DNA of 34,134 bases, taken from Nitrospirota bacterium. GTDB lineage: Bacteria > Nitrospirota > Thermodesulfovibrionia > UBA6902. The translations under genes were made by a program, and so were the position numbers. Below are positions 28,199 to 34,134 of this stretch, piece by piece. The stretch lies in NCBI GenBank assembly GCA_016222905.1, contig JACRPZ010000017.1:68319-102452 (forward strand), written 5' to 3'. The notes beneath the pieces were generated by a model. It had not been told where the DNA came from, ran no database searches, and was given only the letters and a program-made list of their open reading frames with translations. Position 1 is the stretch's first letter. Every line of letters starts with the position of its first letter.

Positions 28199-28606
28199 TT
28201 AGGAAGTGATGAATGTTTCAATAAATGACCGGGGCGTCAAAACCTCAATCCCTCCATATCCCGATAAAACCAGGAGATGCTTATCACCGCTCACAATCAA
28301 CTTCGTTTTGCTTGCTAAAGCGCAAGATATAAACTTATCATCATCCGGGTCTGTTGAAATACCAAAGGGAATTCGCGGCGCCACAACCCAAATAGCGTTA
28401 ACTGCAAGAAGATCAAGAAATTTTGAAATGTCTACACCTTTAAATTCCTTTAAAAATTCCCGCGCAATTCGCTGATACTCATCAAATATTTCTTCTGATA
28501 ATACGATATCAATTTGTCCATGCCGCCAGGCATCAAGAATTTGATACGGAGGGCCGCCAAAGAATACTCCTGATATAAATACATTTGTATCAAGTACGAT
28601 TCTCAC
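28199..28606 (-). CDS. PIN-domain toxin (COG1569-type)
   Basis: The 135-residue protein starts MRIVLDTNVFISG with the first catalytic Asp6 and continues with Glu43 in SEEIFDEYQ, the acidic cluster DPDDDKF (Asp86-90) and SGDKHLL (Asp108). These are the four acidic PIN metal ligands in order, so it looks active as an RNase. Its start overlaps the AbrB-type antitoxin gene by four bases (ATGA arrangement). This is the PIN group usually found as a putative toxin component next to AbrB or RHH antitoxins. Confidence 0.88.
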   Translation of the reverse strand: MRIVLDTNVFISGVFFGGPPYQILDAWRHGQIDIVLSEEIFDEYQRIAREFLKEFKGVDISKFLDLLAVNAIWVVAPRIPFGISTDPDDDKFISCALASKTKLIVSGDKHLLVLSGYGGIEVLTPRSFIETFITS

Positions 28607-29075: not shown

Positions 29076-29591
29076 TTATGTGCCGAAATTTTCTATCCAT
29101 CGCTCTTTCCCAATCTTTAAATTATTCTGAAAATATGCCTCAGTATGTTTAACATCCAACGTAACTTTTTTAAGTCCTGATGAAGCTATCAAATTTTCAA
29201 GGGAGATCCCTCTCTCAGCGACATCCAGAAAAGGTAACGCTCTGATTGCAGCGGCATCACAGCTGCAAAATACTATATCTTCCTCTTTTACGAGTATTGC
29301 CAATGATTCAATTTCCCCTATGTGAATTGTGCTTACCCAAAGCGGCGGCATTTTTGAAATAACAAGTTTGTCAATCTCACTTGCCGTTGCATTAAGTTCT
29401 TTGACTCGTCCGCTTTCTATATATTGTCTCCTGAAATTAATTAATACCTTTGTTCTATCGTTCCAGTAAGACTTCACTTCATCAATAACTGATTGACCAG
29501 CAAATGTTTCATGCCTGTCGACTAATGTATCAAAAAGTCCAAGAGACAAAAGATCAATAATAACATCTGCATCAAGAAGCCATAATTTCAA
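29076..29591 (-). CDS. PIN-like protein paired with an XRE-ImmA protein
   Basis: The 171-residue protein starts at TTG (complement 29589-29591), inside the end of the upstream gene (20-base overlap), with AAGG eight bases before it. The N-terminus LWLLDADVIIDLLSLGLF resembles a PIN first strand with Asp7 and Asp9, and later segments are HIGEIESLAILVKEED and VFCSCDAAAIRAL with an Asp. The pattern is PIN-like but divergent, so nuclease function is an inference. Pairing with an XRE-ImmA/IrrE gene is known for some toxin-antitoxin-like and phage-regulatory systems. The strong overlap says the two act as a unit. Confidence 0.7.
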   Translation of the reverse strand: MKLWLLDADVIIDLLSLGLFDTLVDRHETFAGQSVIDEVKSYWNDRTKVLINFRRQYIESGRVKELNATASEIDKLVISKMPPLWVSTIHIGEIESLAILVKEEDIVFCSCDAAAIRALPFLDVAERGISLENLIASSGLKKVTLDVKHTEAYFQNNLKIGKERWIENFGT

Positions 29592-30702
29592 TGGAATTAC
29601 CTTCTTCCTCTATAAAGCCTCTGCTTGTTATATAGTCATCAATGTCACTTCTATCATTTATCTCCATAAACTCGGCAAACTTGCCTCTTGAAATTAACCC
29701 CTTCCTCAAGCACCGAATTGATAGAGAAGTAAACTGTTCAGATTCTCTTTCTTTCCATTCACCAATTCTTTTTTTATTGCTGATCTGAAGCAAATCAAAA
29801 TCTTTAGCAATTGCGTCGGCCTGCACAAATGAGCGAATAAAATTTAAATAAAAGAGGCGGTAAACAAGCGCCTGAGTAGATACTCCAAACTCGATAGCTA
29901 TATCAACCATATCGGAGTATGTAATATGTTTAGATGTTTCCGCCCTCGCCATTATCTCTTTACTTACTTCATCACCTGGCAGTAATAGAGCGGAAGCAAA
30001 GGCATCTGCTTTTTTTTCTATATCTTCACTATATCCCTCGTTTATATGGTTCTGGCCTAAAACTACAGCATCCCATGTTATAAGGTGAAACAATTCATGG
30101 GCCAGATCAAAATTCTGCCGCCATGGAGCTTCGTTATTATTGATCACGACAACATTGCCGAGATAATGGTTTATAGTAGACACTGAAGATCCCTCAGATA
30201 AAGCGTAATAAAGCACCTTGATGCCGTAATCCTGCTCCAAGACTTTTTGTAACGTGAAAGCCGGCCGTCTTCCTAACTTTAAAAGCCCGCTTACTTCTGA
30301 AGCCAGCTTCTGTACCTTATAATTCGTATTGATGTCATCTATAGTCACATTGATAAATCTATCCATAGGCTTCAAGTTTAGAAGGGACTCAAGCAGTCTG
30401 TATCTCTCACACCGGGAAAGAATATCTTTCTCAATCTCAGCCCTACGCTCTTTTGGAGGATTTCTCCATACAAATGCTACATCTGCCAAAGGCTTCTCGT
30501 AACCGAGCAGTTTATCAATACTGCAATAATAAACAGATGAGAATTTAAGCAACTCAGAAGCCTTAACTTCTCTTTTCCCCTCTTCGATATTGCTGAGGAT
30601 CTGATAGCTTGAGAAACCCAGTTTATCAGCCGCGTCTGTAAGCTTCATCCCCAAAGACTCTCTGATTTGTTTTAACCGTAACGCTAAAGATGAACTTGAC
30701 AT
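29572..30702 (-). CDS. XRE-family regulator fused to ImmA/IrrE metallopeptidase
   Basis: The 376-residue protein has an N-terminal helix-turn-helix (about 8-66: LRLKQIRESLGMKLTDAADK, then SSYQILSNIEEGKR). The central domain is an M78 zinc peptidase: FDLAHELFH gives HExxH (His202, Glu203, His206), and the third ligand is probably Glu229 in EKKADAFA. The C-terminal 100 residues are helical and unassigned. Such proteins cleave repressors or antitoxins after damage (ImmA, IrrE). Here it probably acts as regulator or antitoxin for the overlapping PIN-like gene. GGAGGGGG precedes the ATG. Confidence 0.88.
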   Translation of the reverse strand: MSSSSLALRLKQIRESLGMKLTDAADKLGFSSYQILSNIEEGKREVKASELLKFSSVYYCSIDKLLGYEKPLADVAFVWRNPPKERRAEIEKDILSRCERYRLLESLLNLKPMDRFINVTIDDINTNYKVQKLASEVSGLLKLGRRPAFTLQKVLEQDYGIKVLYYALSEGSSVSTINHYLGNVVVINNNEAPWRQNFDLAHELFHLITWDAVVLGQNHINEGYSEDIEKKADAFASALLLPGDEVSKEIMARAETSKHITYSDMVDIAIEFGVSTQALVYRLFYLNFIRSFVQADAIAKDFDLLQISNKKRIGEWKERESEQFTSLSIRCLRKGLISRGKFAEFMEINDRSDIDDYITSRGFIEEEGNSIEIMAS

Positions 30703-31173: not shown

Positions 31174-31674
31174 TCATTTGAGAGCGAACTTAGATAATAT
31201 TTTCTCCCAATCATCCACTGCTTGAATAGCGATTGAAAGTCCATCTAGTTTACTCCCATCAGAGGTCTCAATATAAAACGGGTGCTCGAAATATCCTTTT
31301 TCTTGAGGTTCAAGTTGTTTCGGATAGGGATTTAGACAAATAGCTAAGGCTGGAACATGCGCAATAATAACCATCTTAGTGATTTTTGCATCCTTCCTAA
31401 TCTTCCGTGTTAGTTCTGAGTGCTTACTTCTATTTGTCAAATCAGCGCATATCATAAGACTATTATAGTTTTTTACTTCTCGTTCAATATTATCTCTAAC
31501 CTTATTCGGCAAAGCTGGGTCGTTTTTTATCCAGTCTTTTAAATGCCAGCAATTTTGAAAAAACCCCAATATGTCGTCACCATACTCAATACTATCTCGG
31601 TCTTGGTTTTTGATCTTATCCAAGTACCGTTTTACCCTTTGAAATTGTTCGTTATACCCGCCGGTTAATAGCAT
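31174..31674 (-). CDS. Conserved hypothetical protein next to nuclease-helicase gene
   Basis: The 166-residue soluble protein is mostly helical at the N-terminus (residues 1-90) with FFQNCWHLKDWIKND and CADLTNRSKHSELTRK, and then has beta-like segments. The pattern of Cys-x-His-Leu-x-x-Trp followed later by N-R-S-K-H recalls a widespread uncharacterised family of helical proteins in defence or mobile regions; the RSKH pair is faintly HEPN-like, but I cannot assign it. It begins 41 bases downstream of the nuclease-helicase stop in the same direction, so the two may form an operon. AGG lies close to the ATG. Confidence 0.65.
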   Translation of the reverse strand: MLLTGGYNEQFQRVKRYLDKIKNQDRDSIEYGDDILGFFQNCWHLKDWIKNDPALPNKVRDNIEREVKNYNSLMICADLTNRSKHSELTRKIRKDAKITKMVIIAHVPALAICLNPYPKQLEPQEKGYFEHPFYIETSDGSKLDGLSIAIQAVDDWEKILSKFALK

Positions 31675-31715: not shown

Positions 31716-33944
31716 TTAAACATCCTTTTTTCTTGCCCACTTAAACCCAATCGCCTCAAGCCTTTTTATCCTCTCAGAATCCAACTTGCCATTCTTGAAG
31801 TTCTGTCTTTGCGTGTCCTGCCAGCTTCCAAGTGCATACCCATCGGGTGTTTTGTACCGTTGAGGGGTATTGGCATCACCTGTTTGTTCCTTGTATCGCA
31901 AAGTCTCTTGAAATCCCTTTTCAAAGGCATCTTCAATTCGCTCCCACTTAAACCCAATCGCCTCAAGCCTTTTTATCCTCTCAGAATCCAACTTGCCATT
32001 CTTGTAGTTCTGTCTTTGCGTGCTTTGCCAGTTTCCAAGGTTATATCCATCTGATTTCGTGCAACTTAAACGAGTATTGGCATCGCCAAACTCATCTTTA
32101 TATTTCAGGGTTTCCTGAAATCCCTTTTCAAAGGCACCTTCGATGAAAGGCCAATTAAAGCCAATTTCCTCAAGCATTTTTATCTTCTCAGTACCCAGTT
32201 TGCCTTTCTTGTAGTTCTGTCTTTGATTGTGTTGCCAGCTTCCAAGCTTATAACCTTTTGGTGTTATGTAGTTAACAGGAGCATTACTGTCGCTTGTCTG
32301 TTTCTTATATCGCAAAGTTTCTTGAATCCAAAACTCAAAAGTTTTGTCAGGCATAGCCCACTTAACTCCTATATACTCAAGCCTTTTTGCCTTCTCAGTG
32401 TCCAGCTTACCTTTTTGCTGTGCTTGCTTTTGGGTAGCTTGCCACATTCCAAGTTTATAACCATCGGGTGTTTTGTAACTTTGAGGCGCATTCGCATCAG
32501 CAAACTCTTCTTTATATCTAATCGTCAACCCATACCAGAAATCCCATTGTTTACCTATCACCTCTAATGTCTTCGTCTGAAGCGTATTGATAAACCGTGT
32601 CTGGTTGATTCTGGTAGGAAGATTATAAACCTCAACCTTCTCTCCATACTCAGCCATGGCATCTTTCCATGCCTGCGTCCCTTCTTCTCCTTTACCCTGC
32701 ATGACCCTTAAATTAGAGACTATATCCTCAAGCCTCTGGTCCTGATCCATCATCGCTTGAAGTACCTGCCAGACAGCATCAAAATCCGAACTCTCTATAA
32801 ACTTTTCAGGGTCAGGGGCATCTTCTACAACAACAGGTATGAAGACATAGCCGGTTTTCTTCCACTCTGCATTTCTCATGGCCCTTCCTGTGGCTTGCAC
32901 TATGTCAATAAGGCTCTTCTTGGGGTCAATGAACGCGACAGTATCTACCGCAGGGACATCCACTCCTTCGTTCAGGCATCTGGCGTTGCTCATTATTCCC
33001 AGTTCCGCCTTTTTAAACTCCCTCATCAAACCGTTTCTTTCTCCTGTTGACATTGTGCCGTTTACATGGAAGAATCCTGCTGCATCGTTTTTAATATCAG
33101 GAGTGAGCATATTGAATATCCGGTGGATGCCGTATGGTATTTTCGTATCAGTAAAAGCCTTGGCCCCTTTTACTCTGCTATGGAATGTGAAGATCTTTTT
33201 TAGTCCATACGCGTTTATTCCTTTAACAAGGGCGATGCGCTTTGCAAGGGCTTTGGCATCCCACTCATGCCCGTCATCTGTGACAACCCTTCCTGACTTC
33301 CGTATGACCTCTCTCACCTCTGAATCAGTAACGCAGATAACAACAATCTTGTAATCCGTAATATGCCCTCTTGCAATGGCTTCGCCAAAGGTCATCTCAT
33401 AAAACGGCTTTCCGTAAACAGCCTTATCATCCATGCTGCATATAAGCAGATCATCCTCTTTTGCTTTCTTCGTGATATGGAGAGCGTAGATTCTGGGTGT
33501 TGCCGTCATAAAGACTCTTTTTTCTATTTGAACTTTATCATCATCAAGCGCAATGTTCCATACACCAGCTTTAGTTCCGGTTGTCCTGCGCCAGTCAGCC
33601 TTGTCGGACATAGTGAAGAATGTGGATAGTTCCCTGAGAGTGGGAGTATTATCGGGGTTCTTCCTGAACTTTGCCTGATACGCGAAGAGTTTTCCGTCTG
33701 TTGTTACTGCCAGACCGTCTATGCCGATGTCCTGAATGCCGGGGTATCCAAGGCGGCTGCGTAATGAAGGCGAGATTTCATTATGACGGTAGACCTCATT
33801 AAACTGAAACACGGGATCGAGAAGAAAGAACGGCTTGCAGAACTGCTCAAACGCCTCACCCCTCTCATTTTCAGTGGGCAGATCTGAAATACGGGACTCA
33901 AGTTCAGCCCATGATGAAACACCATCAAGCAGCTTTAATAGCAT
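31716..33944 (-). CDS. Nuclease-helicase protein with four helicase-associated repeats, Walker motifs missing
   Basis: I prefer ATG 33944 (742 residues) because AAGGGA is nine bases before it; GTG 33950 is the alternative. Residues 1-110 form an Mrr/type ISP-like nuclease with GIDG (Asp76) and YQAKF (Gln90, Lys92). The sequence then jumps at Trp118-Arg120 from SDKADW to RTTGTKAGVWNIALDD. In relatives RTTG follows the DEAH box, with about 200 residues carrying Walker A, Ia and DEAH before it, and here these are absent. Motif III (TATP, 147-150), FHSRV, CLNEGVDVP and QATGRAMR remain. From about 460 on are four 68-residue helicase-associated repeats ending in (I)GFKW. It is probably a defence nuclease crippled in ATP hydrolysis. 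Confidence 0.8.
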   Translation of the reverse strand: MLLKLLDGVSSWAELESRISDLPTENERGEAFEQFCKPFFLLDPVFQFNEVYRHNEISPSLRSRLGYPGIQDIGIDGLAVTTDGKLFAYQAKFRKNPDNTPTLRELSTFFTMSDKADWRRTTGTKAGVWNIALDDDKVQIEKRVFMTATPRIYALHITKKAKEDDLLICSMDDKAVYGKPFYEMTFGEAIARGHITDYKIVVICVTDSEVREVIRKSGRVVTDDGHEWDAKALAKRIALVKGINAYGLKKIFTFHSRVKGAKAFTDTKIPYGIHRIFNMLTPDIKNDAAGFFHVNGTMSTGERNGLMREFKKAELGIMSNARCLNEGVDVPAVDTVAFIDPKKSLIDIVQATGRAMRNAEWKKTGYVFIPVVVEDAPDPEKFIESSDFDAVWQVLQAMMDQDQRLEDIVSNLRVMQGKGEEGTQAWKDAMAEYGEKVEVYNLPTRINQTRFINTLQTKTLEVIGKQWDFWYGLTIRYKEEFADANAPQSYKTPDGYKLGMWQATQKQAQQKGKLDTEKAKRLEYIGVKWAMPDKTFEFWIQETLRYKKQTSDSNAPVNYITPKGYKLGSWQHNQRQNYKKGKLGTEKIKMLEEIGFNWPFIEGAFEKGFQETLKYKDEFGDANTRLSCTKSDGYNLGNWQSTQRQNYKNGKLDSERIKRLEAIGFKWERIEDAFEKGFQETLRYKEQTGDANTPQRYKTPDGYALGSWQDTQRQNFKNGKLDSERIKRLEAIGFKWARKKDV
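31736..32020. repeat. Near-identical DNA repeat inside the helicase-associated region
   Basis: About 75 bases encoding the end of repeats 3 and 4 recur almost exactly at about 31736-31812 and 31946-32022, a 210-base period (70 codons). Repeats 1 and 2 are more diverged. The pattern points to recent duplication or gene conversion of a repeat unit. Confidence 0.75.
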
Positions 33945-33998
33945 ATTCACTTATCCCTTCCCTAAACTACTAATACAAACGCATAAAAAATTATTACA

Positions 33999-34134
33999 AA
34001 TTGAGACTGCTGAAAAAGACTGGCATTAAGTTTGCATAAATAAAGCAAACATAAAGTCAGGAGGGACGATGATAAAGAAGGATTACGGGCAGGTCAGTTT
34101 CTACAGCTATATATACGACGCGGTAATACCGAAA
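33999..34134 (+). mobile_element. Probable left end of an insertion sequence
   Basis: The last 130 bases contain GAGACTGCTGAAAAAGAC (34002-34019), then a short dyad GTTTGC / GCAAAC (34030-34050), then a transposase-like start. The arrangement fits the left end of an IS inserted just upstream of the nuclease-helicase gene. The outer end and any target duplication cannot be fixed because the element runs off the window. Confidence 0.4.
34069..34134 (+). CDS. Transposase N-terminus, probably IS1182-like, cut by window edge
   Basis: AGGAGGGA (34058-34065) precedes ATG 34069, and 22 residues are visible before the window ends: MIKKDYGQVSFYSYIYD followed by AVIPK. A start of the form K-x-Y-G-Q-x-S-F-Y-S followed by Y-D-x-V-x-P-K is what I remember for IS1182-family transposases, in which the next residues are usually DHFLR. 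Twenty-two residues are too few for certainty. Confidence 0.55.
   Translation, partial: MIKKDYGQVSFYSYIYDAVIPK

Follow-up and report, generated by a model that had tools for sequence, protein, structure and literature searches.

An in-frame deletion has probably disabled a Type ISP-like nuclease-helicase gene with HA repeats in a Nitrospirota bacterium

Architecture of the nuclease-helicase gene

The window, which is the whole 34,134-nt stretch of DNA analyzed here, contains a minus-strand open reading frame (ORF) at 31716-33950. This ORF encodes 744 residues followed by a stop codon, has no internal stop, and can start at either GTG 33950 or ATG 33944. A search against Pfam found Helicase_C and four HA repeats (PF03457) in the 744-residue protein, as expected from the original prediction that the helicase part and four HA repeats were retained, and found neither a ResIII or DEAD domain nor a methyltransferase; the motor is followed by HA repeats instead. 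The ORF can be divided into three parts, all on the minus strand: a retained Mrr-type nuclease part with the motif GID...QAK (residues 1-121, 33588-33950, assigned by alignment), a retained helicase part consisting of lobe 2 and a linker (residues 122-420, 32691-33587), and the HA array. Lobe 2 contains TATP, NARCLNEGVDVP, and QATGRAMR, which we take to be helicase motifs III, V, and VI. The HA repeats 1 to 4 are located at 32349-32546, 32142-32348, 31935-32141, and 31719-31934, respectively (Pfam matches, bounds set by eye), and the DNA of repeats 3 and 4 is 79.7% identical. Structure models from six sequences were of low confidence, with a pLDDT of 54.7 for the window protein and 47.7 for a control, the relative in genome G024. 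Upstream of the ORF, 34001-34134 (plus strand) is the end of an IS1182-type insertion sequence (IS) that is divergent from the gene, and the contig ends inside this element. A ribosome-binding-like sequence is still present upstream of the ORF start, the IS element notwithstanding.

Five close relatives (G024, G032, G036, G047, and G178) share the domain order of the window protein and are 61-88% identical to it, the nearest being G024 with 88% identity over aligned positions. By motif count they carry 5 to 8 HA units (4+3 in the split array of G032), compared with 4 in the window copy. The HA array is interrupted by a frame break in G024 (L035:4702-8320) and by a TGA codon in G032 (L036:5093-8587), lesions that could be assembly errors; in both genomes the frame before the lesion holds the nuclease and the motor. 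Both copies have an intact motor, so the lesions are no proof that the genes are inactive. We also note that the copy in G047 (L038:5649-8876) carries ~45 extra residues in frame between helicase motifs, which by eye resemble a translated repeat element.

A 208-codon in-frame deletion

Alignment with the full-length relatives revealed that 208 codons (624 nt) are absent in frame from the window gene and present in all five close relatives. The stretch has exactly this length in each of the five and falls between residues that are adjacent in the window protein. The lost segment holds Walker A and DEAH, and all five relatives keep both GTGKT and DEAH. The in-frame loss of these two motifs in the original prediction is confirmed by the 744 codons without a stop and by the alignment, and its figure of about 200 missing residues can be refined to 208, with the end of the nuclease domain gone as well. 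The junction, which had been placed within 33580-33600, is at 33588|33587 (minus strand) with a 2-nt overlap, CA. On its left side the window DNA tracks that of G024 as far as the R121 codon, and on its right side it resumes with the codon that follows DEAH.

The extent of the nuclease loss was estimated from two comparisons. G024 aligns to LlaBIII over the nuclease and ATPase (E 8.3e-72), which places G024 residue 122 near LlaBIII residue 121. A nuclease-domain deletion construct of LlaGI, described in PMC4666363, lacks residues 1-165, and the same paper gives near-complete identity of LlaGI and LlaBIII outside the recognition domains. Together, these suggest that the window copy has lost ~45 residues of its nuclease domain. 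The lost nuclease segment includes RITITNA or its equivalent, which is present in 12 of 12 aligned relatives. The Mrr-like label that the original prediction gave to the head is based on the GID...QAK motif, which is kept, and on alignments of full-length relatives to LlaBIII that begin at residue 24 or 25. The window protein itself has no Pfam match to a nuclease domain, its nuclease part matches LlaBIII only over a weak stretch (8.4 bits), and the domain is shortened.

Comparison with Type ISP enzymes

The full-length relatives resemble the Type ISP enzymes LlaBIII (4xqk) and LlaGI (5ffj) in the nuclease and SF2 ATPase, the front half of those enzymes. The full-length G036 protein aligns from 24 to 625 with LlaBIII 25-657 (E 1.1e-75) and matches the PADLOC models REase_MTase_IIG and REase_MTase_I over their first ~650 positions. 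For the window protein, the LlaBIII alignment (114-418) covers the sequence beyond the junction. Type ISP enzymes carry methyltransferase and recognition domains where the full-length relatives have HA repeats and, by Pfam, none of those domains; ResIII, DEAD, Helicase_C, and HA were found in the two full-length HA relatives scanned, and no methyltransferase was. Compared with Type ISP enzymes, the window copy is also without lobe 1, which includes Walker A and DEAH, and without the end of the nuclease. A Type ISP-like nuclease-translocase with HA repeats would carry the nuclease, the two helicase lobes, and the HA array in a single frame. The window copy, with lobe 1 deleted, does not, but what it retains is clearly homologous, and it is best seen as a broken descendant of this group. 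A different arrangement is seen in a helicase-HA protein of the Pseudomonas aeruginosa plasmid pF076 (NZ_CP115197.1), the one that was read among the listed matches. Its lobe 2 and HA repeats align with the window protein at 31.1% identity, but it has GTGKT and DEAH, its motor lies near the N-terminus, and no nuclease precedes it. No description of the nuclease-motor-HA-repeat architecture was evident among the listed open-licence PMC papers.

The missing segment and the contig end

Among 395 genomes of the phylum searched, 17 matched, including the window genome (G000); with G036 added, the wider family is found in 17 other genomes. G[TSC]GK[TS] and DEAH occur together in one open frame in 16 of these 17. 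The exception, G378 (L055), keeps lobe 2 and a split HA region and has no Walker A-type motif, DEAH, or nuclease motif; it is a remnant of a related gene, 5'-truncated and frame-broken. Several members of the 17 are less closely related Type ISP-like proteins that have few or no HA units, which leaves five genomes for the comparison with close HA relatives. The lesions in G024 and G032, together with the G378 remnant, hint that the gene may often be damaged.

As the original prediction called for, homologues with the same junction were sought, and none was found among the matches from the 395 phylum genomes or in viral contigs, where both a protein search and the exact junction pattern were used. 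One scan of the genome_contigs collection with the window protein returned three full-length relatives. In phages, 101 records match a full-length relative and none covers more than 80% of it; in plasmids, matches to the full-length relative number 793 records, and those to the window protein 785. One plasmid match, H61, appeared to cross the junction unbroken and was rejected, as its protein has GTGKT and DEAH.

The deletion could also be an assembly error or a minority strain variant, in which case the gene would be intact in the population and the deletion wrong or rare. The genome is fragmented into 90 contigs, and the window contig ends 184 nt from the ORF within an element that has 38 matches in the genome. 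The retained codons, moreover, resemble those of an intact gene. However, a 212-residue query covering the missing segment found no match elsewhere in the window genome at E<=10, on any other contig, and no second copy of the gene was found there. As a control for this empty search, the whole G024 protein finds both retained halves in G000, and it gives a continuous match in G024, G032, and G036. The contig end, which lies more than 400 nt from the junction, is accounted for by the IS element. Comparison of copies that differ in their flanks puts the edge of the element near 34001, ~50 nt upstream of the ORF. Its reading frame begins with a match to the IS1182 transposase family (E 7e-12 over 65 residues, below the whole-protein cut-off). 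Of its 38 matches, 13 begin no more than 6 bases from the first base of a contig; such multiplicity explains contig breaks, including the one at this end, and suggests IS expansion in this genome. Finally, the longest word common to the two deletion endpoints in G024, used as a proxy (40 nt around each), is 6 nt, which appears too short for the usual repeat-driven misjoin. Taken together, an artifact or rare variant is unlikely.

Conservation and age of the deletion

G024 and four outgroups agree at 187 sites after the junction; G000 differs privately at 1 of them, and the reverse count for G024 is 6. The 39 amino-acid differences between G000 and G024 in this part include 5 derived in G000 and 17 derived in G024, with the remainder not assigned to either branch. 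For the retained part of the nuclease, G000 has 0 private changes and G024 has 3. Pairwise dN/dS to G024 after the junction is 0.12-0.14 (YN00), with several outgroup dS values saturated. If the gene has evolved neutrally since it lost the segment, the deletion is, at the upper 95% bound, no older than ~5% of the G000 branch. This estimate uses a pairwise dS of 0.456, halved, and assumes 2.25 nonsynonymous sites per codon. The dating is valid only under neutrality, because a misassembled intact gene or a selected short protein would show equal conservation. With this in mind, the deletion is probably recent.

The same conservation bears on whether the HA array is still useful, with the short protein binding DNA without cutting it and so competing with other proteins or serving as a roadblock. 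The four HA repeats all remain in frame and intact, dN/dS is low over the retained part, and a static Walker A mutant of LlaGI was an activating roadblock for a partner in vitro, according to PMC4666363. This form is, however, shared by no other genome searched, the genome has no second copy with which the protein could interact, and if the deletion is recent, the low dN/dS mostly reflects the history before it. We consider such a DNA-binding role very unlikely.

A probable loss of function

We believe that the window gene is probably a Type ISP-like defence-type gene that was broken recently. Its intact form combines a nuclease of the Mrr type, an SF2 ATPase motor, and, at the C-terminus, an HA array. 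The array probably does the DNA binding, standing in for the methyltransferase and target-recognition domains, and the intact protein may serve in defence. If it works like LlaBIII and LlaGI, this protein would bind DNA, translocate on ATP, and cut on meeting a partner. A single 624-nt deletion, sealed at the 2-nt overlap, would have removed the nuclease end and nearly all of helicase lobe 1, and the reading frame would have been kept by chance, one in three. The shortened product would show no normal ATP binding and no translocation, and its nuclease would be truncated; we infer that the window copy has lost its activity.

The original prediction had offered two readings, a recent inactivating deletion and an ATP-independent nuclease. 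The first is favored by the 208 codons that all five relatives have and the window copy lacks, a junction shared by no other genome searched, the nearly unchanged codons, the lack of a second copy of the segment in the assembly, the IS element upstream, and the damage in some related copies. It has to be weighed against 744 codons without a stop or frameshift and against the conservation of the nuclease motif, the motifs of lobe 2, and the HA repeats. These features would fit a gene still under selection, or one that is intact and lacks the segment in the assembly only. The ribosome-binding-like sequence that is kept ahead of the start also counts against inactivation.

The second reading, a nuclease that works without ATP and is kept by selection, fares worse. 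The GID...QAK motif is intact, and weak cleavage by the LlaGI Walker A mutant alone is reported in PMC4666363, which makes ATP-independent nicking possible in principle. Yet the ~45 nuclease residues that are gone include the segment found in every relative aligned, and double-strand cleavage by Type ISP enzymes depends on converging, translocating enzymes, as stated in PMC7049714. In addition, the helicase motifs are conserved like those of working motors, which would be superfluous in a motor-less enzyme, and the junction is unique among the genomes searched. We therefore see hardly any chance that this reading is correct. It is also highly improbable that the deletion created a motor-less protein that selection keeps. 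In such a protein, the HA array would tether DNA, and either the truncated nuclease or a static lobe 2 would work without ATP, nicking DNA or blocking other enzymes that translocate along it.

A recently broken copy would make this locus a clean case of a defence-type gene that was probably disabled by one in-frame deletion. As the frame is left open, domain-based annotation would still call the product a helicase. The locus also points to a little-described architecture, in which a Type ISP-like nuclease and motor are joined to a variable HA array, and experiments would do better to start from its intact forms.

Neighbouring genes and related observations

The gene directly downstream of the nuclease-helicase gene differs among copies: it encodes a DUF3644 protein (PADLOC PDC-S19) after the L003 copy and a DUF4238 protein after the G047 copy, whereas a 166-residue ORF (31174-31674) with no family match follows the window copy. 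These downstream genes give no more than a loose hint of a defence setting. The 31174-31674 gene was considered as a fixed partner and rejected, as its relatives occur in 3 other genomes of 295, and these three are absent from the list of nuclease-helicase matches.

Further along the window, 29076-30702 contains a gene for a 376-residue protein with an HTH and an M78 peptidase domain, resembling RmrA and spr1629-type antitoxins, followed by a gene for a 171-residue protein with no family match. The two are perhaps a toxin-antitoxin-like pair. A PIN_3 domain protein is encoded at 28199-28606.

Among the plasmid matches, the helicase-HA genes of Streptomyces and Kitasatospora (H67, H69, H71-H76, and H86) lie within ~2 kb of the end of the record. 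Telomere-linked helicase genes of linear plasmids are expected near plasmid ends.
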